From Candidatus Gastranaerophilales bacterium (lineage in GTDB: Bacteria > Cyanobacteriota > Vampirovibrionia > Gastranaerophilales > Gastranaerophilaceae), in the NCBI GenBank assembly GCA_944322675.1, contig CALUPO010000004.1:1-64000 (forward strand): a DNA stretch of 64,000 nt. The letters are read 5' to 3'. Below are positions 9,485 through 56,710 of this stretch, piece after piece (the first letter of the stretch is position 1; each line of letters begins with the position of its first letter). A program made the translations under genes and the position numbers. The notes under the pieces are model-generated. The model was not told the DNA's origin. It saw only the letters and a list, made by a program, of their open reading frames with translations, and did not search any database.

Positions 9485-11083
9485 ATGACAATGAAAGTTT
9501 TAATAACAGATAAAATTAACGAAAGTGCAAAAGATATAATTGGTGATGCATCTCAATGCGACTTTTTGCCTACAATGAGTGAAGATGAACTTGCTTCAAA
9601 AATAGGTGAATATGATGCTTTAATGGTGAGAAGCCAGACTAAAGTCACTAAAAAAATTATTGAAGCCGGTAAAAACTTAAAAATCATAGGACGAGCCGGT
9701 GTTGGGGTTGATAATATAGACCTTGAAGCGGCTACAAAATGCGGAATTATTGTTGTAAACTCGCCTGATGGCAACACTCATGCGGCTGCTGAACATACGG
9801 TTGCTATGATGTTAAGTTTGTCAAGAAACATACCGCAAGCTTATGAAACTATAAAGCAAGGGCTTTGGGAACGCTCTAAGTTTACAGGTGTTGAAGTTTT
9901 TGACAAAACTTTAGGGATTATTGGATTTGGGAAAATAGGACAACACGTTGCAAATGTTGCTCAAGCTTTGGGAATGAATGTCATTGTTTATGATCCATAT
10001 ACAACAAAGGAACTTGTTGAAAATTTATGTGCAACTTATTGTTCAACGCTTGATGAATTTTGGGGTCAATGTGATTATATATCCATTCATACGCCAAAAA
10101 CTAAAGAAACTATTTCTTTAATCAATAAAAATACTATAAATCGTATGAAAAAAGGTGTAAAAATTATTAATTGTGCCCGTGGGGGTATAATTGATGAAGC
10201 TGCATTGTGTGAAGCAATAAAAGAAGGACAGGTTAGCGGTGCTGCTATTGACGTGTTTGAAGATGAGCCCAACATTAAATCATCACCATTATTTGAATGT
10301 GTTGACAAATGTGTTTTAACTCCACATTTGGGTGCTTCAACAAGCGAGGCACAAATTAATGTTGCGGTTGATGTTGCAAAACAAATCCGTGAAGTCTTGC
10401 TTGGCGGCGAAGCAAAAAGTGCTGTCAACCTTCCACAAATGAAGCCTGAAAAATTAGAGCCTGTCAAAGATTATATGGGGCTTGCTCAAAATATTTCTCA
10501 AATGGCTTCTCAAATTGCAAGCGGCAATATTCAAAGTGTTGAAATTACTGTTATGGGCGAACTTGCTCAAATTGATGTTACACCTATTGAAATAGCTGTT
10601 TTAAAAGGTGTTTTTGATTATCGTGTTGGATGTGTTAATTATGTCAACGCTCCACTTATAGCTAAAGAACGTGGAATTAATGTTGCAACTGTTAAATCAA
10701 ACCAAAAAGTACCTTCAATGGGTGTTATTGCAGTTAAAATAACAACAAGTGAAAGTGAAACAATTGTGCGTGGTGCTATGCTTGCAAAAAATATTTATCG
10801 TATTACAAAAATTAATAACTTCTCAACAAGTGTTGTGCCTGAACCTTATATGCTTTTAATACCGCATGAAAATAAACCGTCAATGGTTGCAAAAGTCGCT
10901 CAAATTATTGGTGATAATGGAATAAATATTAATAGTATGCAAGTTAATAACGATACAAAATCACAAAATAATGAATCAATTATGGTTTTAAATATTCCTT
11001 GTGAAGTTTCAAGTGACGTTTTAAATAAGTTAAATCAAATTGATGGTGTTAAAAGTTCAAAATATGTTAAATTAAGTGTTTAA
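9485..11083 (+). CDS. serA: D-3-phosphoglycerate dehydrogenase
   Basis: A 532-residue long-form SerA, which oxidises 3-phosphoglycerate to 3-phosphohydroxypyruvate, the first step of serine synthesis. It shows the substrate-side [11 protein letters not shown], the NAD-binding [10 protein letters not shown], a catalytic arginine in [10 protein letters not shown], and the catalytic His in LTPHLGAST. The intervening ASB domain and a C-terminal ACT domain (starting around [12 protein letters not shown]) point to allosteric control by serine. ATG at 9491 is an alternative start two codons later. It follows the aminotransferase by 11 bp and precedes the nucleotidyltransferase by 16 bp. Confidence 0.95.
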
Positions 11084-14344: not shown

Positions 14345-15061
14345 TTATTTTATTAAGTTATCAAGATCAACTTCTTGATTTATATCCATAACTAAACATT
14401 TTTGGTTATTTTGAGATTCTATATTATTTTTAAATTTAAGCACATCTGCATTAATAAGGTCAAATGTATTGTAATGCATAGGTATTACTATTTTTGCTTT
14501 TAACATTTTAGAAGCAATACAGGCTTCATTTATACCCATCGTATAGAATCCGCCAATTGGACATAATATAACATAAGGGCTATACATATTTCCATATAAT
14601 TCCATATCCGAATGTAAAGCTGTATCTCCAAGATGCATTATGGATATATTATTTAGCTTAAATAATATAGAACTTGCACAACCTCCATAACTACCATCAC
14701 TTAATGATGATGAATGTAAAGCATTTAAAAATAACACCGAACCAAAGTCGAGTTTTATTTCTCCACCTAAATTAGTTCCAATTGCTGTCGCACCATTTTT
14801 TATAGCATAATTTGCTATTTCAAATATACTATAAATAGGTGCTTTTGTATTTTTTGATATTTCTATTGCATCACCAAAATGATCACTGTGACCGTGTGTT
14901 ACAAATATATGTGTTATTTGATATTTTTTATAGTCAAATGTTGCTTTTGGATTATTTTTAATAAAAGGGTCAATAAGTATTCCATATTTATTTTCAATAT
15001 TTATATAAAAACAACTATGACCAATATAAAGAATTTTTATATTATTAATATTTTTATTCAT
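14345..15061 (-). CDS. UPF0173 metallo-beta-lactamase-fold hydrolase
   Basis: A 238-residue metal-dependent hydrolase of the UPF0173 (YtkL/UlaG-like) group. It has an early IGHSCF segment, the metal-binding THGHSDH motif (H56, H58, D60, H61), HLGDTALHSD as the next ligand block and PMHYNTF near the end. It is cytosolic, with no signal peptide. Substrate is unknown. Convergent with the UPF0126 gene. Confidence 0.9.
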   Translation of the reverse strand: MNKNINNIKILYIGHSCFYINIENKYGILIDPFIKNNPKATFDYKKYQITHIFVTHGHSDHFGDAIEISKNTKAPIYSIFEIANYAIKNGATAIGTNLGGEIKLDFGSVLFLNALHSSSLSDGSYGGCASSILFKLNNISIMHLGDTALHSDMELYGNMYSPYVILCPIGGFYTMGINEACIASKMLKAKIVIPMHYNTFDLINADVLKFKNNIESQNNQKCLVMDINQEVDLDNLIK

Positions 15062-15110
15062 TTTTTTATTTCCTTTTTATAGTTTATTATATTATACAAT
15101 AAAGTTATAA

Positions 15111-15175
15111 ATGAAGTCCATGATATAACCCCTTATTCTAAGTTTAAGAAAGATTTTATATAATGGAGACTTCAT
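15111..15175. repeat. Imperfect inverted repeat in intergenic gap
   Basis: ATGAAGTCCATGATATAA (15111-15128) is nearly the reverse complement of 15156-15175, differing by one base and a 2-nt insertion, with a loop of 27 nt. It lies upstream of creD in the 15062-15376 gap and could be a long hairpin or a remnant of a small mobile element. Apart from this and the G-rich tract below, the gap shows only AT-rich sequence. Confidence 0.45.
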
Positions 15176-15239
15176 CTTTAAACTTTTTGACTTTATTCCA
15201 TAACTTCTTATTTATTTTACCTATCGCTTTTTAACATGA

Positions 15240-15262
15240 GGGTTAGGGTGAGGGGGGGGGGG
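15240..15262 (+). other. G-rich tract ending in 11-G homopolymer
   Basis: GGGTTAGGGTGA followed by eleven Gs (15252-15262), about 115 bp before the creD ATG. Such a G run is striking in this AT-rich DNA. It fits a G-quadruplex motif and is a candidate slipped-strand site. It also resembles the G-rich tails of the repeats at 23185-23570 and 62538-63557. Confidence 0.6.
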
Positions 15263-15376
15263 AAAAATCAAAACTTATTAGATAAAATTTAAACAACTCT
15301 TTTATTTTATAACTTGACTAATAAATATTTGACTAATATCATTAAATTAATAAAGTTATAGGAGATTATAACAAAA

Positions 15377-44067: not shown

Positions 44068-44388
44068 TTATAATTTTACCTCAATGTCAACACCGGCCGG
44101 CAAATCCATTCTGCTTAATTCCTCTGTTGTTTGATGTGTTGGTTCATATATATCAATTATTCTTTTATGAATCCTTCTTTCAAAATGCTCGCGTGATTTT
44201 TTATCAACATGAGGAGATCTCAATACACAATAAATTCTTCTTCTTGTGGGCAAAGGTATAGGCCCTGATACTTTTGCTTCCGTACGCTTTGCCGTTTCAA
44301 CTATCTTCTCGGCTGACAAGTCGATTAATTTATGATCGTATGCTTTTAAACATACCCTTATTCTCTGTCTTGAACCTGTAGCTGCCAT
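44068..44388 (-). CDS. rpsJ: 30S ribosomal protein S10 (NusE)
   Basis: 106 residues: [51 protein letters not shown] and the [13 protein letters not shown] ending. First gene of the ribosomal cluster. S10 also acts with NusB in antitermination. Its 5' region (44389-44480) is divergent from the calpain-like array and should hold the operon promoter, but I could not pick out clear boxes. Confidence 0.97.
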
Positions 44389-44480
44389 TTTATTTTTTTC
44401 CTATTTCTCACATTCTATTACTTGCTTACCTTAATGTAATATAAACAAAATTTCACGTCAATCCATGTTTTTAATTTTTT

Positions 44481-44578
44481 GTAAAGTTTTGTAACAATTT
44501 TTGCAAATCTTGAAATTCTTTATAAGTAGAATTTTTTATATATGTAGTATTTCTATATAATTAGTAGAGAGCAAAAAT
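44481..44578 (+). repeat. 5' leader repeat, copy 1
   Basis: About 98 nt, beginning GTAAAGTTTTGTAACAATTT and ending in GTAGTATTTCTATATAATTA then GTAGAGAG just before the ATG of the first calpain-like gene. The same leader, at about 90 percent or better by eye, precedes the second and third genes. TATAAT within it is a possible -10 box; GAGAG acts as ribosome-binding site. Confidence 0.85.
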
Positions 44579-47500
44579 ATGAGCAGTAATATTTCAATTT
44601 CACCAGGCACAAAAGTAAGTCAAACTACTTCGCCAAAAAAACCTAATCAATCCCAAGAAACACAACAAGGAGAAGTAAGAGAACAACAACAAGAACTTAT
44701 GTCTTCACAAACTAGTCATGGTTTTATGGCTTATGGTCAAGTATTATTATATCAAAACAAACCTAATACTCAAAAAGCTGAACAAAAAGAAAATATGTTA
44801 AACAAAGTTGAAAATTCAACAAACACACAACAAATACAAACTACTTTGCCAAAAAACTCTAATCAATCCAAAGAAACACAACAAGGAGAAGTAAGAGAAC
44901 AAGAACAACAAAAAGAAATTAAAGAAGACGCAGAACAATTATTTAAGAACTTAGATGAATTAAAAAGCCAAAATAAAACAAAACAGTTAGAAGAGCTTAT
45001 TAGTAACAATCTTAAGACAATTATAAATAATACATCAGATGATAGTCAATATAAGAAGACAAGCATAGGTTTTTTAGACACTATAATAAAGAAGATTAAT
45101 AATAAGATGTTTATATCAGATGAAGATGAAAATACAGTTAGTGAACTTTTAAATAATATTGATATTATATCAAAATTATATGACTCACAAGAAACAGTTC
45201 TTTGTACTCTACTAAAAGCAACTAAAAAAGCTAGTAGTAAAACTCTTGTAAATAATGCAATTCAAGTGTTTTCAAACAATACTACTAAAGAAAAAAGTAT
45301 TAGAACACCATGTATGTTTAAACAATTAATTAATATAGTTAATAATAACAGTCTTATATTTGGTAGTAATACCACAATTCAAAATCTAGTTAATATTTGG
45401 GATACTATAGAATTTGAAGAAACTAAGGATACAAAAACCAATAAAACAATAACTGCTAAACAAAATAGAAATCTTTCTTTATATTATATAGCTCATGCCA
45501 CTGCTAAGTCGACATCTCTTAACAACGATACAATGACAATATTACTTGATAAAATTAATGATATTTCTAATACAACTAATGAAAACAATGAAGAAACAAA
45601 AACAAAGAAACAGAATCAATCAGAATATCTATTTATTTTATCTCAAAATTTAAAAATTAATAAAGAAGTCAATAAAGACATGATAGAATCATTATTCAAT
45701 AAAGCTCTTGACTGTGGAATGTTTAAAGATGAGACAAATCCAGCCGTGCAAAGAACCTTTGTAAGAAACTTAATAGATGCAGCATCAAGATTAGATAAAG
45801 ATGAAGCACAAGGACTTTATGAAACACTTTATAAAATTGCAACAACTACTAAAGACAATACAAATCCTGTCCAAGAGAATGATGGTAAAAATGATATAGG
45901 TGGTTTTGGCTCAGAAAATCTTCCAAACAATGCACAAAGTTCTTATATGCCACCTAAGTTAATTTTATTCTTTGCAAAACTTGATAAAACATTGGGATAT
46001 CAAGATGTTCAAATTCAAACAGATTTAATAAATGCTATAACGCATAGAAAAGACGGTAATGAAGATGCTAATTTGGATCCAAAAGTGCCTTTATGCCCTG
46101 CATTAAATTATTTGCAAAAAGAACAATTAAAAGATATTGACGAAAGTGCTATTGTCAATAGAATAATAACAACAAATGATGCAAAAGATATAGATGCAAA
46201 AGATATACAACAATTTGAACTTGAGTATTTAATAGATTTAAAATTAAGCCACGAATTATATGAATTGAATACAGATAAAGGGCAAGATACACTTATTAAT
46301 ATACTTACAACTCATTATGATATACTTACTAACAAATTTGAGCCAGAAATGGCATCTAAAACACAAACCAGCCAATTACCCGGTGATGTACCAAATAATG
46401 ATGAAAAAATCAAACTAAAAATAGCTCTTAACACAACAATGAATGTACCTGATAAAGCTTATGATGGCGTTTATAACCTTGCACTTATTGCATTAAAGCA
46501 AATGGAACCCAAAGATAGAGGTAAATTTTTAAATAAGTTAATTGATGACCTAAAATCTAAAAATACAGACACCACAAAATCATACACCATAAACTTGTTA
46601 GAAAAATTAAAAACAAATGAGCAATTTGACAACGACAAATTGCTCACAACAAGACCTGTATTAAGACAATATAATGAGAAAGGTAAAACGGTAAGCAAGA
46701 ATTATCAACCAAATCTTACTAGTTTCCGTATGCCAAGAACAACAGATAAATGTGAAATATTTAAAGAAAATGGAATAAATTATCTTGGATTTAAAGGTAC
46801 AAACCAAAAAATTGAAACAAGTTTAGATACAAAAACGGCAGAACGTCTTTTTGGCTCTCAAAGTTCCAGCGGACACCAGATAATTGGCAATTGTTGGCTT
46901 ATTTCAACATTAAAACAAATAGAAGCTAATCCACAGCTTAAACTTTTCATTTATAGTCATTTTGATGCAGAATTTGAAAATGGTGAATTGGCATCTGTCA
47001 CTATAAAATTAAAAAATGAAAATAAAGTTACATTTAGTAAAGATGTTGTCGATGAAGTTTCAAAAATAGGGGCAACTGAACATCTTTCTCCGGCTATGTC
47101 CTGCCTTGCTTTACTTTCCGCTATTTATAGAACACCAGGAATCAAACATGATATAAGCAAAATAGATAAACCAATAGATTCAAAATCACTTCAAGTAAAA
47201 TTTCCAGAAAATAAATATAATCCAGATTATTTAGATGATTCAGATAACTTAGATAAATTAGATAACTCAGATAACTCAGATAACTTAGATAACTTAGATA
47301 AATTAGATAAATTAGATGATTTAAATGATTTAAATGATTTAGATGATTTAGATGATTTAGATGATTCAGATGATTCAGATGATTTAACATATTTAATAAA
47401 AGAGATAGATAATGAGCCAAATGAACAGATAATAACTAAAGAACTAAAAAATGCAATAATTAATGCTCTTAGAATATCGAATCATGGTGGAGAACAATAT

Positions 47501-47785
47501 AAAGATGTGCTAAGTCTATTTATTAATGATGATGAACGAGATGATATAAAAGATAACACACAAAGTAATAGTGTTAATACAACACAAATAATAAATTTAT
47601 ACAAACATGCCATAGGCAAATATGGAGATTTCTATTTAAATCCACAAAATAGTCATTCTCTTTTTATTTTTGACAAAGCAATTAAAGAAGACGAAGAAAA
47701 AGCAGTAACAGAAAAACAAAAAGAAATTTATGTAAATAAAATATATAAAAAAGATGATACAAGTTATACTATACCAGAATTTTAA
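44579..47785 (+). CDS. Calpain-like cysteine peptidase with helical repeats, paralogue A
   Basis: 1068 residues, no signal peptide. The first 39 residues are identical to paralogue B (Ser/Thr/Gln-rich, probably disordered). A helical region with few solenoid units follows (LLKATKKASSKTLV, LYYIAHATAKSTSLNNDTMTILL), then a middle region shared by all three paralogues (TFVRNLIDA, SSYMPPKLILFFAKLDKTLGYQ). The C-terminal domain has GHQIIGNCWLI with C772, VVDEVSKIGATEHLSPAMSCLALLSAIYR, KHAIGKYG with H1010 and YLNPQNS with N1021: the Cys-His-Asn order of calpain/papain-fold peptidases, with a Gln five residues before the Cys. An Asp/Leu/Asn tract of about 52 residues interrupts this domain. Peptidase activity and targets are inferred only; an effector or stress-protease role is possible. 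Confidence 0.8.
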   Translation: MSSNISISPGTKVSQTTSPKKPNQSQETQQGEVREQQQELMSSQTSHGFMAYGQVLLYQNKPNTQKAEQKENMLNKVENSTNTQQIQTTLPKNSNQSKETQQGEVREQEQQKEIKEDAEQLFKNLDELKSQNKTKQLEELISNNLKTIINNTSDDSQYKKTSIGFLDTIIKKINNKMFISDEDENTVSELLNNIDIISKLYDSQETVLCTLLKATKKASSKTLVNNAIQVFSNNTTKEKSIRTPCMFKQLINIVNNNSLIFGSNTTIQNLVNIWDTIEFEETKDTKTNKTITAKQNRNLSLYYIAHATAKSTSLNNDTMTILLDKINDISNTTNENNEETKTKKQNQSEYLFILSQNLKINKEVNKDMIESLFNKALDCGMFKDETNPAVQRTFVRNLIDAASRLDKDEAQGLYETLYKIATTTKDNTNPVQENDGKNDIGGFGSENLPNNAQSSYMPPKLILFFAKLDKTLGYQDVQIQTDLINAITHRKDGNEDANLDPKVPLCPALNYLQKEQLKDIDESAIVNRIITTNDAKDIDAKDIQQFELEYLIDLKLSHELYELNTDKGQDTLINILTTHYDILTNKFEPEMASKTQTSQLPGDVPNNDEKIKLKIALNTTMNVPDKAYDGVYNLALIALKQMEPKDRGKFLNKLIDDLKSKNTDTTKSYTINLLEKLKTNEQFDNDKLLTTRPVLRQYNEKGKTVSKNYQPNLTSFRMPRTTDKCEIFKENGINYLGFKGTNQKIETSLDTKTAERLFGSQSSSGHQIIGNCWLISTLKQIEANPQLKLFIYSHFDAEFENGELASVTIKLKNENKVTFSKDVVDEVSKIGATEHLSPAMSCLALLSAIYRTPGIKHDISKIDKPIDSKSLQVKFPENKYNPDYLDDSDNLDKLDNSDNSDNLDNLDKLDKLDDLNDLNDLDDLDDLDDSDDSDDLTYLIKEIDNEPNEQIITKELKNAIINALRISNHGGEQYKDVLSLFINDDERDDIKDNTQSNSVNTTQIINLYKHAIGKYGDFYLNPQNSHSLFIFDKAIKEDEEKAVTEKQKEIYVNKIYKKDDTSYTIPEF
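47231..47387 (+). repeat. Asp-rich coding microsatellite in paralogue A
   Basis: Short degenerate units of TTAGAT, TCAGAT and GATGAT/AACGAT-type triplets encode an LDD/SDN/LDK tract of about 52 residues inside the peptidase domain. Paralogues B and C lack it at the same place, so it is a recent in-frame expansion. Confidence 0.85.
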
Positions 47786-47837
47786 AAAATAATATTAATA
47801 CCAATCTAAGTGTTAATGGATAATAAAATACTTTTTG

Positions 47838-47913
47838 CCATAAAGCATTTGGCATCATACGATGATATACCCACAAAGGTATGTCATCGTTTTTTAATTT
47901 TTCAAAGTTTTTT
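47838..47913 (-). pseudogene. Duplicated 3' fragment of the NTPase gene, copy 1
   Basis: Read on the minus strand it encodes FEKLKNDDIPLWVYHRMM followed by PNALW, matching the C-terminal end of the intact gene at 56021-56710 (FETLKYDDTPLWVYHRMM, PNALW). The TAA stop has become CAA. It marks the end of the first duplicated unit between paralogues A and B. Confidence 0.85.
47860..47895 (+). terminator. Terminator after paralogue A
   Basis: CGATGATATACC (47860-47871), a 6-nt loop CACAAA, then GGTATGTCATCG (47878-47889) with one G-T pair and six T. It is a good rho-independent terminator. The same bases are the coding remnant of the convergent NTPase gene. Confidence 0.8.
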
Positions 47914-47925
47914 ATTTTAAAAAAT

Positions 47926-48025
47926 GTAAAGTTTTGTAACAATTTTTACGATCCTTGAAATTCTTTATAAGTAGAATTTTTTATATATGTAGTATTTCTA
48001 TATAATTAGTAGAGAGGGTAAAAAT
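47926..48025 (+). repeat. 5' leader repeat, copy 2
   Basis: About 100 nt, nearly identical to 44481-44578, ending in GTAGAGAGGGTAAAAAT before the paralogue B ATG. The GAGAGGG ribosome-binding site is a little stronger than in copy 1. Confidence 0.85.
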
Positions 48026-51000
48026 ATGAGCAGTAATATTTCAATTTCACCAGGCACAAAAGTAAGTCAAACTACTTCGCCAAAAAAACCTAATCAATCC
48101 CAAGAAACACAACAAGGAGAAGTAAGAGAACAACAACAAGAATATATTTCTTCTGAAGCTAGTAATGCTTATAAAAATTATAATCCACAAATAATTTCAA
48201 ATGAATCAAATGTTCAAGAGCCAGCTACTCAAGAAACAAATCAAGAGCCAGCTGTTCAAGAACCCGCTACTCAAAACATGGGTATGACAGATGAGGATAT
48301 AGACGAAGCAAAGAATGTAATTAAAACCCGCTTCTTAATAGATAATAAGATTAATCCTGAGTATCTTAATATGTATATAAAAAATCTAAAGAATCCCAAC
48401 TTTAAAGATAAAATACTAAAGGTTCTAAAAGCAATGTCTTTGTATATTCGAGAGAATAATAATATCCAAAATTTGAATGAGGTTATTGATAAACTTTTAG
48501 ACAACAATATATTAACAAGTTTAGACGATAATACAAAAGCACAGTATTTAACTAATATATCTCAAGCCGCTGCTAATACTAAAGATCTTAGCAGTAAGAC
48601 AATTAAAACCCTATTGAACAATAAAGACAATATTCATAATGAGAACAAGCGAGATGAATATTTATGTAATATATCTCAAGCAGCTAGTAAGTCTAAAAAC
48701 ATTAATCCATTGGATTTCATTTTTTTGCTTAATAATCTAATGATAGAATCTATACAAAACAATGAAAACAAGGCAAAATATTTATATAATATATCTCAAG
48801 CCGCTGCTAATACTAAAAATCTTAGCAGTACTATAATTACACTCCTATTAAATAATAAAGACCATATTGATAATGAGAATAAAGATGAATATTTATGTAA
48901 TATAGCTCAAGCTGTTAGCAAAATGGATGGTTTGAATCTTGATGAGAAGATAATTAAGGAGCTATATACATATATAAATTCTATTCAAGATAATGACAAA
49001 CAAGGAAAAGCTCTTTATGCTCTACTAGAAGCAACTAATAAAACTGCTAGTAAAACTGCTAGTAAAACTCTTGTAAATGAAGCAATTAAAGTGTTTTTAA
49101 AAAAGTGTCCAAACAATACTAAAGTAGAAAATATTCCCATACAACTTGCGTTTAATAAATTAATTAGTATAGTTGAGAATAACAGTTTTAGGTTTGGTAG
49201 TAATAAAACAATTCAAAATCTAGTTAATATTTGGGATAATATAAAATTTCAAGATACTACTGATAATACAACCAAGGGAAAAATAAATGCTAAACAATAT
49301 AAAAATCTTTGTTTAGCTCATATAGCTCATGCCACTGCTAAGTCGACATCTCTTAACAACGATACAATGACAATATTACTTAATAAAATTGATGATATTT
49401 CTAGTACAAAAGAAAAAATAAAGAAACAAAAGCAATTAGCATACATATATACTTTATCTGAAAATTTAAAAATTAATAAAAAAGTCAATAAAGACATTAT
49501 AGAATCATTATTCAATAAAGCTCTTAACTATGGAATGTTTGAAGATGATGATACAAATACATACATGCAAAGAACCTTTGTAAGAAACTTAATAGATGCA
49601 ATATCAAGATTAGATCAAAATGAAGCAAAAGAGCTTTATACACAACTTTATACAACTGCAACAACTACTAAAGACAATACAAATCCTGTCAAAGAGAATG
49701 ATGGTAAAAATGATATAGATGGTTATTCCTCAGAAAATCTTTCAAACAATGCACAAAGTTCTTATATGCCACCTAAGTTAATTTTATTCTTTGCAAAACT
49801 TGATAAAACATTGGGATATCAACAAAATACGGAAATTCAAAACAAGTTAATGGATGCTATAACGAATACAAGTCTAGACGAAAAAGAAAACAAGATAAAA
49901 TTGGCTCCAAAAGTGTCTTTATGCCCTGCATTAAATTATTTGCAAGAAGAGCAATTAAAGGCTATTGACGAAAGTGCTATTGCCAATAGAATAATACAAG
50001 AAAACGGTGCAAAAGATATACGACAATTTGAACTTGAGTATTTAATCGATTTAAAATTAAGCCATGGATTATATGAATTGAATACAGATGAGGGGCGAAA
50101 TAAGTTTATTGAGATACTTACAAATAATTATAATTATGATATACTTACTAATAAATTTGAGCCAAAAATGAAATATGAAACACAAACCAACCAAGTAAAC
50201 GGTGATATTTCAGATAGTAATTGCAAAATAGACAAAAATGTCGAGATGGTTATATCTGATAAAAATTATGATGGTGTTTATAACCTTGCACTTATTGCAT
50301 TAAAGCAAATGGAACCCGAAAATAGAGAGGAATTTTTAAATAAGTTAATTGAAAAGCTAGATCCTAAATCAAAAACTACGAACTTGTTAGAAGAATTAAA
50401 AACAAATGAGCAATTTGACAACGACAAATTGCTCGACACAAAACCTGTATTAAGACAATATGATGATAAAAGCAAAACAGTAAGCAAGAATTATCAACCA
50501 AATCTTACAAGTTTCCGTATGCCAAGAACAACAGATAAATGTGAAATATTTAAAGAAAATGGAACAACATATCTTGGATTTAAAGGTACAAGCCAAAAAA
50601 TTGAAACAAAGTTAGATACAAAAAAGGCAGAACTTCTTTTTGGCTCTCAAAGTTCAAGCGGACACCAGATGATTGGCAATTGTTGGCTTATTGCAACATT
50701 AAAACAAATAGAAGCTAATCCACAACTTAAACTTGCTGTTTATAGTCATTTTGATGCAACAGTTGACAAAAATAACGAATTACAATCTGTCACTATAAAT
50801 TTAAAAGATGGACGTAAAGTTACATTTTCCAAAGACGTTGTCGATGAAGTTTCAAAAATAGGGGCAACTGAACATCTTTCTCCGGCTATGTCCTGCCTTG
50901 CTTTACTTTCAGCTATTTATAGAACAACAGGAAAAAATGGAAAACATGATATAAGCCAAATAAATGAAACAATAAATTCAAGCTCACTTCAAGAAAAATT

Positions 51001-51532
51001 TTCAGAAAGTCAATATGATACAGATAGTTTTGATAATGTAAATGAGTCAAATAAACAGATAACAGCTAAAGATCCAAAAAATGCAATAATTAATGCTCTT
51101 AGAATATCAAATGAAGATGGAAATGAATTTAATGATATACTAAGTCTATTTATTGATGATAAACAAGATAATATAAAAGATGACACACAAAGTAATGGTG
51201 TTAATACAATACAAGTAATAGGTTTATATAAACATGCCATAGGCAAATATGGAGATTTCTATTTAAATCCACAAAACAGTCATTCTCTTTCTATTTTTAG
51301 CAAAGCAACTGACGAAGACCAAAAAAAAGCAGCACCAGAAAACTCAGATCAACAAAAAGAAATTTATGTAAATAAAATATATAAAAAAGATGATCAAAGT
51401 TATACTATACCTCAGTTTAAAGCTGAAACAATTTATTCTAAAATTAAAAAATCAGTCAATAATATAGTAAATAGTTTCATAGGATTCTTTAAAAAAGATA
51501 ATACCAAAACCAATCTAAGTGTTAATGGATAA
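48026..51532 (+). CDS. Calpain-like cysteine peptidase with helical repeats, paralogue B
   Basis: 1168 residues. The N-terminal 39 residues equal those of A; then a QEPA repeat stretch. Four to five solenoid units of about 38-40 residues follow (YLTNISQAAANTKDLSSKTIKTLL, YLCNISQAASKSKNINPLDF and similar). The shared middle region comes next, then the peptidase-like domain with GHQMIGNCWLI (C886), KHAIGKYG (H1070) and YLNPQNS (N1081). Unlike A it continues for about 40 residues past this domain with a basic, hydrophobic tail (SVNNIVNSFIGFFKK) that could be an amphipathic membrane-binding helix. No export signal is evident. Confidence 0.8.
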   Translation: MSSNISISPGTKVSQTTSPKKPNQSQETQQGEVREQQQEYISSEASNAYKNYNPQIISNESNVQEPATQETNQEPAVQEPATQNMGMTDEDIDEAKNVIKTRFLIDNKINPEYLNMYIKNLKNPNFKDKILKVLKAMSLYIRENNNIQNLNEVIDKLLDNNILTSLDDNTKAQYLTNISQAAANTKDLSSKTIKTLLNNKDNIHNENKRDEYLCNISQAASKSKNINPLDFIFLLNNLMIESIQNNENKAKYLYNISQAAANTKNLSSTIITLLLNNKDHIDNENKDEYLCNIAQAVSKMDGLNLDEKIIKELYTYINSIQDNDKQGKALYALLEATNKTASKTASKTLVNEAIKVFLKKCPNNTKVENIPIQLAFNKLISIVENNSFRFGSNKTIQNLVNIWDNIKFQDTTDNTTKGKINAKQYKNLCLAHIAHATAKSTSLNNDTMTILLNKIDDISSTKEKIKKQKQLAYIYTLSENLKINKKVNKDIIESLFNKALNYGMFEDDDTNTYMQRTFVRNLIDAISRLDQNEAKELYTQLYTTATTTKDNTNPVKENDGKNDIDGYSSENLSNNAQSSYMPPKLILFFAKLDKTLGYQQNTEIQNKLMDAITNTSLDEKENKIKLAPKVSLCPALNYLQEEQLKAIDESAIANRIIQENGAKDIRQFELEYLIDLKLSHGLYELNTDEGRNKFIEILTNNYNYDILTNKFEPKMKYETQTNQVNGDISDSNCKIDKNVEMVISDKNYDGVYNLALIALKQMEPENREEFLNKLIEKLDPKSKTTNLLEELKTNEQFDNDKLLDTKPVLRQYDDKSKTVSKNYQPNLTSFRMPRTTDKCEIFKENGTTYLGFKGTSQKIETKLDTKKAELLFGSQSSSGHQMIGNCWLIATLKQIEANPQLKLAVYSHFDATVDKNNELQSVTINLKDGRKVTFSKDVVDEVSKIGATEHLSPAMSCLALLSAIYRTTGKNGKHDISQINETINSSSLQEKFSESQYDTDSFDNVNESNKQITAKDPKNAIINALRISNEDGNEFNDILSLFIDDKQDNIKDDTQSNGVNTIQVIGLYKHAIGKYGDFYLNPQNSHSLSIFSKATDEDQKKAAPENSDQQKEIYVNKIYKKDDQSYTIPQFKAETIYSKIKKSVNNIVNSFIGFFKKDNTKTNLSVNG

Positions 51533-51543
51533 TAAAATACTTT

Positions 51544-51624
51544 TTACCATAAAGCATTTGGCATCATACGATGATATACCCACAAAGGTGTGTCATCGTT
51601 TTTTAATTTTTCAAAGTTTTTTAT
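51544..51624 (-). pseudogene. Duplicated 3' fragment of the NTPase gene, copy 2
   Basis: The same C-terminal fragment as at 47838, here with the original TAA stop kept (TTA CCA on the plus strand at 51544). It separates paralogues B and C and confirms that the duplicated unit ran from the leader through the gene into the neighbouring convergent gene. Confidence 0.85.
51569..51604 (+). terminator. Terminator after paralogue B
   Basis: CGATGATATACC (51569-51580), loop CACAAA, GGTGTGTCATCG (51587-51598) with two G-T pairs, then six T. Copy of the terminator at 47860. Confidence 0.78.
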
Positions 51625-51635
51625 TTTAAGAAAAT

Positions 51636-51734
51636 ATAAAGTTTTGTAACAATTTTTACGATCCTTGAAATTCTTTATAAGTAGATTTTTTTATATATGT
51701 AGTATTTCTATATAATTAGTAGAGAGGGTGAATA
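51636..51734 (+). repeat. 5' leader repeat, copy 3
   Basis: About 99 nt, matching copies 1 and 2, ending in GTAGAGAGGGTGAATA before the paralogue C ATG. Conservation of this untranslated stretch across all three genes, while the N-terminal coding sequence of C differs, implies shared regulation. Confidence 0.85.
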
Positions 51735-54700
51735 ATGAATAAATCTATTCCAAACAAGATCAATGGTTATTTTCAAAAATATAAAAACGTATTTAGCAAT
51801 ACTAACATACGATCAAGCAACTTAAACACAAATCAAGATACCCCTCAACAAAATGAAGTTGCATCACACGAAGTAGCTAATGCAATGAGAAATCAAGTTA
51901 TAGCCAATTCTAATATAAGTATTAATAACAGCAATCAAACAATCCAAACAAATAATGAGGGTATTTCTAATCAACAAAAACTACCTGAAAATGAAAAAGA
52001 TTTGTTATATTTTATAGAAGATGCCGTATGTAACAACAAAGATCTTGATAACGAAACAATCAAAACACTGCTTGACAACAAACATTTAGGCATGATCAGC
52101 AACCTGGAACATAAAAATGTATATTTATGTAATTTAGCAAAAACAACAATGCAAACTAAAAAAGCAATTAAGAGTGACACAATTCAAATACTACTTAATA
52201 ATATAGGAAATATTGATGATGATGCTAAAAATGAATATTTATATAACTTAGCAATAGCTGCAAGTAAAAATACAATTAATGAAAATACTTTATCACAATT
52301 ATCTTGGACAGCAAGTAAAACTTCCAATCTTAACAATGCAACAATATTAATGCTACTTACAAACACAGAAAGAATTAATAATATTGACCTTAAAAATAAT
52401 AGTTTATGTAGTATAGCAAAAGCTGCAAGCCAAACTTTAAATCTTGATAATGATACGATTCAAAAACTACTTAACAATATAGGAAATATTGATGATGATG
52501 ATGCTAAAAATGAATATTTAAATAATTTATCAAAAGCTGCAAGCCAAACTCTAAATCTTAATGATGAAACAATTAAAACTTTAATTAGCAAAGATAATAT
52601 AAGCCTTATTAAAAATAAAGATGACTATTTATGTAATATATCAATAGCCACTGCTAATATACAAAATCTTGATAATACGACAATTAGTACACTGCTTGAC
52701 GAACAACATCTAGACATCATTAGCTCTCAAGAAAAGAAAAGAGAATATCTATATAATATAGCAAAAGCTGCAAGTAAAACTCAAAATCTTGATAATAATA
52801 CGATTCAAAAACTACTTAACAATATAGAAAATATTAATAATGGTAATAAAGATGGATATTTAGGTTTTGTTGCACAAGCTGCAAGTAAAAACAAAATTGA
52901 TTCATTTACTATATATCAATTAGCCTATGAAGCAACTACAATACCAAGTCTTACTAATACAACACTAAAAACCTTGTTTAAGTGTATAGAAAAAATTGAA
53001 AAAAAGAAAGATGACAGCTACTATATTAATTATAGTTTACTTAATATGGCAGAAGCTGCAAGTAAAACTCAAAATATTGATTATGATATAATCCAAAAAT
53101 TACTTGATAATATAAGAAATATTGATGATGGTGATAAAGATGGATATTTATGCAATTTAGCAATAGCTGCAAGTAAAACTCCATATCTTAATAATACGAC
53201 AATTAACACACTGCTTGACGAACAACATCTAGACATCATTAGCTCTCAAGAAAAGAAAAGAGATTATCTATATTATTTAGCAATAGCTGCAAGTCAAACT
53301 TTAAATCTTGATAATGATACGATTAAAAAACTACTTGACAATATAGGAAATATTGATGATGGTAATAAAGATGGATATTTAGGTTTTGTTGCACAAGCTG
53401 TAAGTAAAAACAAAATTAATTCATATATGGTATATTACTTAAGCTATACAGCAGCTGAAATTCCAGGTCTTACTGACACAACAATAACAACAATACTTGA
53501 GAGCGTAGAAAAAATAGATGACAACAAGGACAATGGCATGAGTAAAAATGATTGTTTACCTTGTTTAGCAGAAGCCGCAAGTCAAACTCAAAATCTTAAT
53601 GATAATACGATTAAAATATTGCTTGACCATATAGGAAATGTTAATGAGAATAATAAAAATGAATATTTATGCAATTTAGCAAAAGCAGCAAGCCAAACTA
53701 AAAATCTTAATGATGAAACAATTAAAACTTTAATTAGCAAAGATAATATAAGCCTTATTAAAAATAAAGATGACTATTTACATAATATATCAATAGCCGC
53801 AAGCCAAACTAAAAATCTTAATGATGAAACAATTAAAACTTTAATTAGCAAAGACTGTCTAGAAATTATTAATAATCAAGAATATAAAAATAGCTATTTA
53901 TATAATGTGTTAATAGCTGCAAGTAAAATTCAAAATCTTGACATTGAGACAATTAAAATATCACTTAATAAGATTGAAAATATTTCTAGTATAGATAAAA
54001 AAACAAAGCAACAAAATCAATTAGCATACATATATATTTTATCTGAAAATTTAAAAATTAATAAAGAAAACAATAAAGAAAAGATAGAATCATTATTCAA
54101 TAAAGCTCTTAACTATGGAATGTTTGAAGATGATACAAATACATACATGCAAAGAACCTTTGTAAGAAACTTAATAGATGCAATATCAAGATTAGATAAA
54201 GACGAAGCAATAGAGCTTTATGACAAGTTTTATAAGACTGCAACAACTACTAAAGACAATACAAATCCTGTCAAAGAGAATGATAAAAATGATCTAAATG
54301 GTCTTACTTCAACAAATCTCCCAAATAATGCACAAAGTTCTTCTATGCCACCTAAGTTAACTTTATTCTTTGCAAAATTTGATAAAACATTGGGGTATCA
54401 ACAAAATACGGAAATTCAAGGCAAGTTAATGAATGCTATAACGCATAAAGACGGTAATCCAAAAGTGCCTTTACACCCTGCATTAAATTATTTGCAAAAA
54501 AGTGACTTAGCAGAAATTAAAGAAGATGATGTGGTCAATAGAATAATAAAAACAAATGATGCAAAAGATATACGACAATTTGAACTTGAGTATTTAATAG
54601 ATTTAAAATTAAGCCATGGATTGTATAAATTGAATACAGATGATGGGCAAAATAAGTTTATTGAGATACTTACAAAACATTATGATATACTTACTAACAA

Positions 54701-56015
54701 ATTTGAGCCAAAAATGAAATATGAAACACAAACCAACCAAGTAAACGGTGATACTTCAAATAGTAAAGCCAAAATAAAGAATGTAAAAATGGATAATATA
54801 TCTGATGAAAATTATGATGGCGTTTATAACCTTGCACTTATTGCATTAAAGCAAATGGAACCCGAAAATAGAGAGGGATTTTTAAATAAGTTAATTCAAG
54901 GCCTAAAATCTAAAGATACAGACACCATAAAAGATACAGACACCATAAAAGATACAGACACCACAAAAGATACAGACACCATAAAAGATACAGACACCAT
55001 AAAAGATACAGACACCACAAAAGATACAGACACCACAAAATATACATACACCATAAACTTATTAGAACAATTAAAAAAAGATGAGCAATTTGACAACGAC
55101 AAATTGCTCGACACAAAACCTGTATTAAGACAATATAATGATAAAGGTCAAACAGTTGGTTACAAGTATCAGGAAAATCTTACAAGTTTCCGTATGCCAA
55201 GAACAACAGATAAATGTGAGATATTTAAAGAAAATGGAATAACTTATCTTGGATATAAAAATACAAGTACAAAAATACAAACAGATTTAAATGAAACAAA
55301 GGTAAACCTTCTTTTTGGCTCTCAAAGTCCCAACGGACACCAGATGATTGGCAATTGCTGGCTTATTGCACTAATAAAAGAAATGCAAATCAACCCGGAA
55401 CTTAAACTTGCTGTTTATAGTCATTTTGATGCAGAAGTTGACAAAAATAACGAATTACAATCTGTCACTATAAAATTAAAAGATGGAAAGGAAGTTACAT
55501 TTGAAAAAGACGTTGTCGATGAAGTTTCAAAAATAGGGGCAACTGAACATCTTTCTCCAGCTATGTCCTGCCTTGCTTTACTTTCAGCTATTTATAGAAC
55601 AACGAAAGATAAGGACGGTACAAATCACATAGAAAATATACTTCCAAATAAAAATGATGAAATAACTATAGATAAGGATTCTAAAATACTTAGAAGCAAT
55701 TTTGGTAAAAATAATCCTATATTAAATGCTCTTAGAATATCAAATGAAAGTAGTACAAATATTTATAACGACTTAATTGATTTATTTTTTGATAAAACTA
55801 AACAAGAGAACTCTACAACAACACGTGAAATAATTACAGTACCAAACCATGCTATAGCTCACTTAGGAAATCAGAATGAATTTCATATAAACCCACAGAA
55901 CAGCTATTCAGTATTTTCATTTGCATATGGTAAAAACAGTGATAATTTAATATATGAAAAAGAGCTTTATGAGATCAAATATTATATTCCTGACTCTGAA
56001 AAGAAAAATAAATAA
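51735..56015 (+). CDS. Calpain-like cysteine peptidase with long solenoid, paralogue C
   Basis: 1426 residues. The N-terminal 80 residues are Asn/Gln/Ser-rich and differ from A and B. About 15 solenoid units of 36-42 residues follow, up to about residue 760, with the pattern YL.NLA.AASQT.NL...TI..LL..I.NID. The shared middle region, a KDTDTI/KDTDTT hexapeptide array and the peptidase-like domain follow: GHQMIGNCWLI (C1208), VVDEVSKIGATEHLSPAMSC, NHAIAHLG (H1372) and HINPQNS (N1386). The His-Asn spacing is 14 here and 11 in A and B. The protein converges on the NTPase gene, 5 bp from its end. Confidence 0.8.
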   Translation: MNKSIPNKINGYFQKYKNVFSNTNIRSSNLNTNQDTPQQNEVASHEVANAMRNQVIANSNISINNSNQTIQTNNEGISNQQKLPENEKDLLYFIEDAVCNNKDLDNETIKTLLDNKHLGMISNLEHKNVYLCNLAKTTMQTKKAIKSDTIQILLNNIGNIDDDAKNEYLYNLAIAASKNTINENTLSQLSWTASKTSNLNNATILMLLTNTERINNIDLKNNSLCSIAKAASQTLNLDNDTIQKLLNNIGNIDDDDAKNEYLNNLSKAASQTLNLNDETIKTLISKDNISLIKNKDDYLCNISIATANIQNLDNTTISTLLDEQHLDIISSQEKKREYLYNIAKAASKTQNLDNNTIQKLLNNIENINNGNKDGYLGFVAQAASKNKIDSFTIYQLAYEATTIPSLTNTTLKTLFKCIEKIEKKKDDSYYINYSLLNMAEAASKTQNIDYDIIQKLLDNIRNIDDGDKDGYLCNLAIAASKTPYLNNTTINTLLDEQHLDIISSQEKKRDYLYYLAIAASQTLNLDNDTIKKLLDNIGNIDDGNKDGYLGFVAQAVSKNKINSYMVYYLSYTAAEIPGLTDTTITTILESVEKIDDNKDNGMSKNDCLPCLAEAASQTQNLNDNTIKILLDHIGNVNENNKNEYLCNLAKAASQTKNLNDETIKTLISKDNISLIKNKDDYLHNISIAASQTKNLNDETIKTLISKDCLEIINNQEYKNSYLYNVLIAASKIQNLDIETIKISLNKIENISSIDKKTKQQNQLAYIYILSENLKINKENNKEKIESLFNKALNYGMFEDDTNTYMQRTFVRNLIDAISRLDKDEAIELYDKFYKTATTTKDNTNPVKENDKNDLNGLTSTNLPNNAQSSSMPPKLTLFFAKFDKTLGYQQNTEIQGKLMNAITHKDGNPKVPLHPALNYLQKSDLAEIKEDDVVNRIIKTNDAKDIRQFELEYLIDLKLSHGLYKLNTDDGQNKFIEILTKHYDILTNKFEPKMKYETQTNQVNGDTSNSKAKIKNVKMDNISDENYDGVYNLALIALKQMEPENREGFLNKLIQGLKSKDTDTIKDTDTIKDTDTTKDTDTIKDTDTIKDTDTTKDTDTTKYTYTINLLEQLKKDEQFDNDKLLDTKPVLRQYNDKGQTVGYKYQENLTSFRMPRTTDKCEIFKENGITYLGYKNTSTKIQTDLNETKVNLLFGSQSPNGHQMIGNCWLIALIKEMQINPELKLAVYSHFDAEVDKNNELQSVTIKLKDGKEVTFEKDVVDEVSKIGATEHLSPAMSCLALLSAIYRTTKDKDGTNHIENILPNKNDEITIDKDSKILRSNFGKNNPILNALRISNESSTNIYNDLIDLFFDKTKQENSTTTREIITVPNHAIAHLGNQNEFHINPQNSYSVFSFAYGKNSDNLIYEKELYEIKYYIPDSEKKNK
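54912..55055 (+). repeat. 18-nt coding VNTR in paralogue C
   Basis: Seven near-perfect units AAAGATACAGACACCATA (last codon ATA or ACA), then one degenerate unit, encoding (KDTDTI/T)n. Paralogue A has a single related NTDTTK stretch at the matching place; B has none. Recent slippage expansion. Confidence 0.9.
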
Positions 56016-56020
56016 ATTAT

Positions 56021-56710
56021 TTACCATAAAGCATTTGGCATCATACGATGATATACCCATAATGGTGTGTCATCGTATTTTAATGTCTCAAAATCTTTTG
56101 AAAGAAAATCCGGTATACCAACTGCAAATATAGGTATATTTATTTCCTTTGAAACATTTTTTAAAATATTATAACCATTCACTATATCTTCTCTTGTTGT
56201 CTCATTTCCAAAATGCGTATTCGAAATCATACCTTTAAAACATTTATAAGGCTTATTACCACAGCCTTTTGCAATATTTATATATTCAATTATACTTTCT
56301 TCATCTTTTGTTTCAAATTTTGAAGTGTTAACAACCAGATAATTGCGAACATCAGTTTCATCTTCAATACCTTGTAAAATATCCAATATATCAAGACCTG
56401 AAGCACCATATCCTACATCAATAATTATATCGTTTTTATTATTTTTAAGCACCATTACCTGTTCTTGTGTAACATAACTTGCAGCCTCGCCAAGACCAAA
56501 TCTATCCAATTGAGCAACAACATTTATACCGTCTTCTTCTAATTTTGGCACTAAAGGACGTAAACAATAAGCCGGCTCAACTGTATCTAAATCCACAAGA
56601 GTTACGGGGTGTCCATTTTTTATATATTGATACGCACGATTTATAGCAGTCTCAGATTTACCAGAAGCATAAGCTCCAGAATAAATTTCCACTATTCTTT
56701 CATTTGACAT
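56021..56710 (-). CDS. SIMIBI-type P-loop NTPase (MinD/CobQ-like), unknown
   Basis: 229 residues. The N-terminal Walker A variant is YSGAYASGKSE, followed by VTLVDLDTVEPAY with the acidic residue typical of the MinD/ParA/NubP superfamily, and DIIIDVGYGASG (Walker B-like, DxGxG). VVNTSKFETKDEE may hold the base-recognition NT/K element. It is probably a cytosolic ATPase or GTPase of unknown partner. Its last 27 codons also form the terminator of the convergent paralogue C and have been duplicated twice into the array. RBS is not strong. Confidence 0.75.
   Translation of the reverse strand: MSNERIVEIYSGAYASGKSETAINRAYQYIKNGHPVTLVDLDTVEPAYCLRPLVPKLEEDGINVVAQLDRFGLGEAASYVTQEQVMVLKNNKNDIIIDVGYGASGLDILDILQGIEDETDVRNYLVVNTSKFETKDEESIIEYINIAKGCGNKPYKCFKGMISNTHFGNETTREDIVNGYNILKNVSKEINIPIFAVGIPDFLSKDFETLKYDDTPLWVYHRMMPNALW
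56046..56080 (+). terminator. Terminator of paralogue C inside the NTPase coding end
   Basis: CGATGATATACC (56046-56057), loop CATAAT, GGTGTGTCATCG (56064-56075), then TATTTTA. It ends plus-strand transcripts, although the same bases encode DDTPLWVYHRM of the NTPase on the minus strand. The T-run is poorer than in the two copies that no longer encode protein. Confidence 0.65.

Follow-up and report, generated by a model that had tools for sequence, protein, structure and literature searches.

The window, the stretch of 64,000 nucleotides analysed here, comprises bases 1-64000 of contig 4 of a 2.1-Mb Gastranaerophilales genome, that of a gut-dwelling relative of the cyanobacteria. It carries three long plus-strand paralogues, P1, P2 and P3, between the minus-strand gene of ribosomal protein S10 and a minus-strand P-loop NTPase gene. 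P3 and the NTPase gene are convergent, with 5 bp separating their stops. A preliminary description of this DNA had proposed that both spacers between the paralogues encode the last residues of the NTPase on the minus strand, as the scar of a duplication. How did the end of a neighbouring gene come to stand between the paralogues, and why is it still present there? The features of the locus are as follows.

44068-44388, minus strand: ribosomal protein S10 gene, left flank of the array
44389-44578, plus strand: S10/P1 intergenic region and P1 leader, without an NTPase tail; unit start near 44480 (TGTAAAGTTTTGTAAC...)
44579-47785, plus strand: P1, peptidase-like paralogue of 1068 aa (open reading frame, alignment)
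47835-47925, minus strand: NTPase 3'-end copy 1, with CAA in place of the stop TAA (blast, protein search, alignment)
47859-47890, plus strand: terminator-like hairpin, copy 1, of 13 pairs with a loop of 6, then TTTTTAATTTTT (-18.5 kcal/mol, z -6.8)
47926-48025, plus strand: leader copy ahead of P2 (leader alignment)
48026-51532, plus strand: P2, 1168 aa, mosaic of P1-like and P3-like tracts (alignment)
51544-51635, minus strand: NTPase 3'-end copy 2, stop TAA retained (blast, protein search, alignment)
51568-51599, plus strand: terminator-like hairpin, copy 2, of 13 pairs, then a T-run (-18.5 kcal/mol, z -7.1)
51636-51734, plus strand: leader copy ahead of P3 (leader alignment)
51735-56015, plus strand: P3, 1426 aa, with divergent N- and C-terminal ends and a core homogenised with P1 and P2 (alignment)
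56021-56710, minus strand: P-loop NTPase gene, donor of the tails; its stop lies 5 bp from the P3 stop
56043-56078, plus strand: terminator-like hairpin in the NTPase coding region, antisense, of 15 pairs with the tail TTTAATGTCT, which would serve P3 (-20.8 kcal/mol, z -5.7)

NTPase tails and the duplicated unit

A blast search of the whole genome revealed the NTPase 3' end at exactly three sites, namely the gene itself and the spacers after P1 (47834-47913, 89%, E 9.2e-24) and P2 (51543-51622, 91%, E 1.8e-26), so that the tail is not a general repeat. Translated on the minus strand, spacer 2 reads ...NFEKLKNDDTPLWVYHRMMPNALW followed by a stop and spacer 1 reads ...NFEKLKNDDIPLWVYHRMMPNALWQ with CAA in place of the stop, compared to ...DFETLKYDDTPLWVYHRMMPNALW and a stop at the C-terminus of the NTPase. 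The loss of the stop in the left copy and its retention in the right one, as previously noted, are thus seen directly. The NTPase protein as query independently found both spacers (residues 204-229 at 85% and 202-229 at 79%). In local alignment the spacers score 115 and 127 against the NTPase end, where the best of 1000 dinucleotide shuffles reaches 33. The positions given earlier were correct within a few bases; the match extends to about 47925 and about 51635 when a 4-nt indel is permitted. Because the NTPase C-terminus is conserved in orthologues from other genera (protein search), and two of these loci that were read in their entirety (G009 and G016) have no adjacent peptidase gene, the NTPase is the donor, with the scar held in the spacers. 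The leader ahead of P1 does not resemble the NTPase (score 16, with 826 of 1000 shuffles as good), hence the tail is found only downstream of a peptidase gene.

The P1 leader recurs at 47925-48016 (96%) and 51637-51726 (94%), and a tail stands at both internal junctions. These copies support a duplicated unit, already sketched in the preliminary description, that consisted of the promoter-leader, the peptidase-like gene and approximately the last 31 NTPase codons, equivalent in the window to about 44480 to about 56109. The tail can be traced to about AAGAAAAT in the NTPase gene (56102-56109), and the leader begins at about TGTAAAG (44480). Alignments place the tail-leader join at about 47925/47926 in spacer 1 and about 51635/51636 in spacer 2; there is little or no microhomology, and the AT-richness of the sequence leaves the exact base uncertain.

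The scar had also been taken to give the direction and the boundaries of the duplication. It does name the donor and the boundaries; the direction is obscured by derived changes shared between the spacers and by later conversion. Both spacers carry the leader change ACGATCC, absent from the P1 leader, for GCAAATC, the variant common to the P1 leader and the S10 side of the sister species (G001), and further derived changes are common to them within the tail. These shared changes in leader and tail indicate that one of the spacers was copied from the other, as expected if recombination between two P genes made the third, and for this reason the second copy probably arose by homologous unequal crossing-over.

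The leader also contains GTTACAAAACTTTACAAA at 44478-44495 and 47923-47940, both on the minus strand, which matches the cyanobacterial HLR1/RpaB site consensus (KTTACAWWNNKTTACAWW). The HLR1-like motif occurs 44 times in this genome versus 3 times for a reversed control, and 10 versus 0 times in 398 kb of the sister species. It is intergenic in 29 of the 31 occurrences checked (two counted twice), and often lies 60-110 bases from a gene start. The Gastranaerophilales are non-photosynthetic. As RpaB homologues have been reported in Melainabacteria (PMC3787301), an RpaB-type regulon may persist in this group.

The paralogous proteins

No match of value to P1-P3 was found in Pfam, NCBIfam or PDB; none of P1, P2, P3 and the G001 protein matches PF00648, and profile searches of PDB sequences gave no match. 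In the alignment of the four proteins, a GNCWL motif, a later His and LNPQN/INPQN are invariant in the C-terminal third, from which we infer a catalytic role of the Cys, His and Asn residues. Weak similarity links the C-terminal third of P1-P3 to other Gastranaerophilales proteins, among them one with a match to Peptidase_C2 (PF00648) above the curated cut-off. The term calpain-like peptidase is therefore used here as a reasonable lead, not as demonstrated membership. A structure model of the peptidase-like domain reached a pLDDT of 59, too poor to help, and gave no significant PDB match.

The three genes are conversion mosaics. The first 40 and the last about 200 residues of P2 go with P1, and alternating P1-like and P3-like tracts lie between them (maximum chi-square 58, exceeded by 0 of 2000 permutations). 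The core is similar across P1-P3, with a dS of about 0.12-0.24, and the C-terminal end of P3 differs from P1 and P2 by a dS of about 1.0, as much as from G001. At fourfold sites, differences amount to 0.07-0.16 between the paralogues versus 0.29-0.37 between the species. The value of dN is near or above dS in several parts of the P genes, which suggests diversifying or relaxed selection. Between the cores of the P genes and the G001 gene (44579-56015 versus L022:10958-14617), dS is about 0.43, compared to about 1.0 in the flanking genes, and dN is far higher; this low dS is unexplained, with exchange between lineages and codon bias as candidates.

P1 is without most of the N-terminal helical repeats and without the C-terminal extension present in P2. 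It stops early at IPEF (47760-47820), and similarity to the P2 end (NTNLSVNG) persists in the bases past the stop, indicating that the extension was lost by deletion. In-frame short tandem repeats absent from the other copies are found in P1 (47200-47400, 9-bp, rich in Asp, Asn, Leu and Ser) and in P3 (54912-55055, 18-bp, KDTDTI/T); they could vary in length from strain to strain.

Terminator-like hairpins and the sister species

As the P3 stop lies 5 bp from the NTPase stop, any terminator of P3 must lie within the coding part of the NTPase gene, and the peptidase gene could be copied in working order only together with the NTPase end. A terminator scan of the 12.7-kb region returned the three tail hairpins as its strongest plus-strand sites, and no other plus-strand terminator-like site after P1, P2 or P3. 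The stems in the window have 13-15 pairs and a loop of 6, followed directly by a T-run (z about -6 to -7). All five tails, those of the sister species included, fold at -16.7 to -20.8 kcal/mol, with 0 of 200 shuffles as good. The T-run changes from TATTTTAATGTC / TATTTTAATG in the NTPase gene to TTTTTTAATTTTT in both spacers and to TATTTTTTAAATTT in a tail relic of G001. No comparable hairpin was found in the antisense 3' ends of NTPases from other genera at the loci read in the right orientation, a comparison that leaves out L012, L016 and L019 (wrong strand); only the two genomes in which a peptidase gene faces the NTPase gene showed the hairpin. The captured tail is a strong predicted intrinsic-terminator structure on the peptidase strand. 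We infer that the copies were kept as putative terminators, with a T-run that improved once coding was relaxed. The preliminary description had missed this likely reason for the presence and retention of the tail.

G001 is the sole other species of the genus compared here; no further relative came up when the genome collection was scanned. It has one peptidase gene (L022:10958-14617), 6 bp from its NTPase gene (14624-15313), and a 571-aa gene (L022:9044-10759) stands between S10 and the peptidase gene. A single-copy relative with the peptidase gene abutting the NTPase gene, as had been anticipated, thus exists in form. However, the spacer after the 571-aa gene carries a relic of the NTPase tail at 10785-10838, which weakens G001 as a clean single-copy ancestor and argues for a reduced array. 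The relic has no long exact word and was missed by the blast-style search; it was found by full local alignment over about 400 kb of G001. It scores 40 against G001's own NTPase tail; the best of 7678 windows covering both strands of 398 kb of G001 reaches 34, and the best of 387 terminator-like hairpins in the same 398 kb reaches 30. On the minus strand it reads KYNDTLLXMYHCIM (X being a stop), with KYDDTPLWVYHRMM as the NTPase counterpart; 1 of 3938 background windows scores equal or higher at this protein level, which is weaker than the result at the DNA level. The relic folds as a fully paired hairpin of 15-16 pairs followed by T's, and two bases inserted in its T-run would put the sequence out of frame.

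Seven substitutions distinguish the stem in the window's NTPase gene from that of the relic. None of them breaks a pair, and two pairs are changed on both sides (p 0.0003 under free substitution, about 0.05 with transitions only). In the stem alignment, which holds few sequences, 96% of the cells are paired, with two double changes; one outer pair is lost in the NTPase copy of G001. Synonymous sites of the NTPase gene are not more conserved in the tail than elsewhere (8/17 versus 60/177, p 0.30).

The spacing at the tail-leader junction is nearly equal in the relic and in the window spacers, and the S10-side promoter element is also retained in G001. At one leader site, the G001 peptidase leader groups with the window spacers, and the P1 leader with the S10-side copy of G001. 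Since a tail relic precedes the peptidase gene of G001, the presence of one copy there is probably a secondary condition, another gene standing where a copy was lost; the array is most likely older than the species split and was reduced in G001. The 571-aa gene, considered as an ancestral neighbour, is absent from 96 other family genomes searched and is more likely a later arrival; it has no counterpart in the window's genome, and its HELRH motif marks it as a possible metallopeptidase. The tails of the window spacers are 9-11% from the NTPase and far less diverged than the relic, so these spacers would either have been homogenised later or have arisen separately.

Origin of the array and known systems

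Based on the observed tails, boundaries, hairpins, relic and mosaic genes, we propose the following course of events, in which termination activity, selection on the hairpin, and the order and age of the steps are deduced from sequence. A peptidase-like gene would have become convergent with the NTPase gene and abutted it, its terminator sitting in the last about 20 NTPase codons on the opposite strand. A tandem duplication may then have fused the beginning of the peptidase leader to the NTPase 3' end at a point about 31 codons in, so that promoter, gene and terminator formed one self-contained unit. A third gene, along with a second spacer, would have come from recombination between the copies, and cores and leaders would have stayed similar through gene conversion. 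The spacer tails, free of coding, presumably kept their hairpin while their T-run improved. The tail-leader junction would be older than the species split; in G001, the array would have been reduced and the junction have decayed with the hairpin kept. As a whole, we consider this account of duplication with capture of a terminator probable. Its wider reading, that intrinsic terminators were here born from coding sequence, with tandem duplication releasing copies of an antisense terminator whose T-run became better in both species and whose pairing persisted through compensatory change, is tentative and in our judgement slightly short of an even chance.

The youth of the window copies bears on two other readings. 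Independent duplications in the two species could have produced similar boundaries if only units with leader and terminator were viable, and the divergence between window spacers and NTPase is indeed below that between the species, as are the fourfold-site differences of the paralogues. Conversion can account for this youth, though, and both the near-identical junction spacing and the leader site that joins the G001 peptidase leader to the window spacers and the P1 leader to the G001 S10 side speak against separate origins, which we hold to be rather unlikely. The tail could instead have been carried along without function because the break fell there, the hairpin being an accident of NTPase codons. 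A simple tandem duplication requires no selection, the spacers are young and the NTPase synonymous sites are unconstrained. Nevertheless, the heavily diverged G001 relic still forms a full hairpin with a longer T-run, the hairpin was seen only where a peptidase gene is convergent with the NTPase gene, in two genomes, and P1, P2 and P3 are followed by no alternative site; a tail without function is thus distinctly unlikely. The proximity of the three occurrences might also suggest a dispersed REP- or MITE-like repeat overlapping the NTPase end by chance. The genome-wide searches refute a general repeat, with no copy of comparable score elsewhere in either genome, and the tail encodes the conserved C-terminal end of an old protein family, so that this reading can practically be set aside.

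If the favoured account of terminator capture holds, the locus would show what a gene cassette must carry for a working duplication when the stop signal lies in an opposing gene, and would allow the change of coding sequence to a regulatory RNA signal to be traced. The locus further cautions against taking every single-copy relative for the ancestor, since spacer relics can reveal a lost array. Among the titles and abstracts listed in literature searches on terminator origins and on Gastranaerophilales proteases, no such case is described.

Similar to calpain-family cysteine peptidases (MEROPS C2, PF00648), P1-P3 have GNCWL, then His, then NPQN late in the domain, whereas they lack a match to the family in Pfam/NCBIfam or in PDB sequences. 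As in known tandem duplication scars, unequal crossing-over and concerted evolution, a downstream fragment is joined to the upstream leader, the copies are mosaic and the copy number differs between species; the fragment here differs in being the coding end of a convergent gene that looks functional as a putative terminator. Intrinsic terminators at convergent bacterial genes have been described in the terminator map of Zymomonas mobilis (PMC7566282) and for convergent pairs of Rickettsia (PMC3027695). As in those systems, a hairpin and a T-run lie past the stop codon at a convergent junction. In contrast to them, the hairpin lies here inside the coding region of the facing gene, and coding-free copies of it sit between tandem paralogues.
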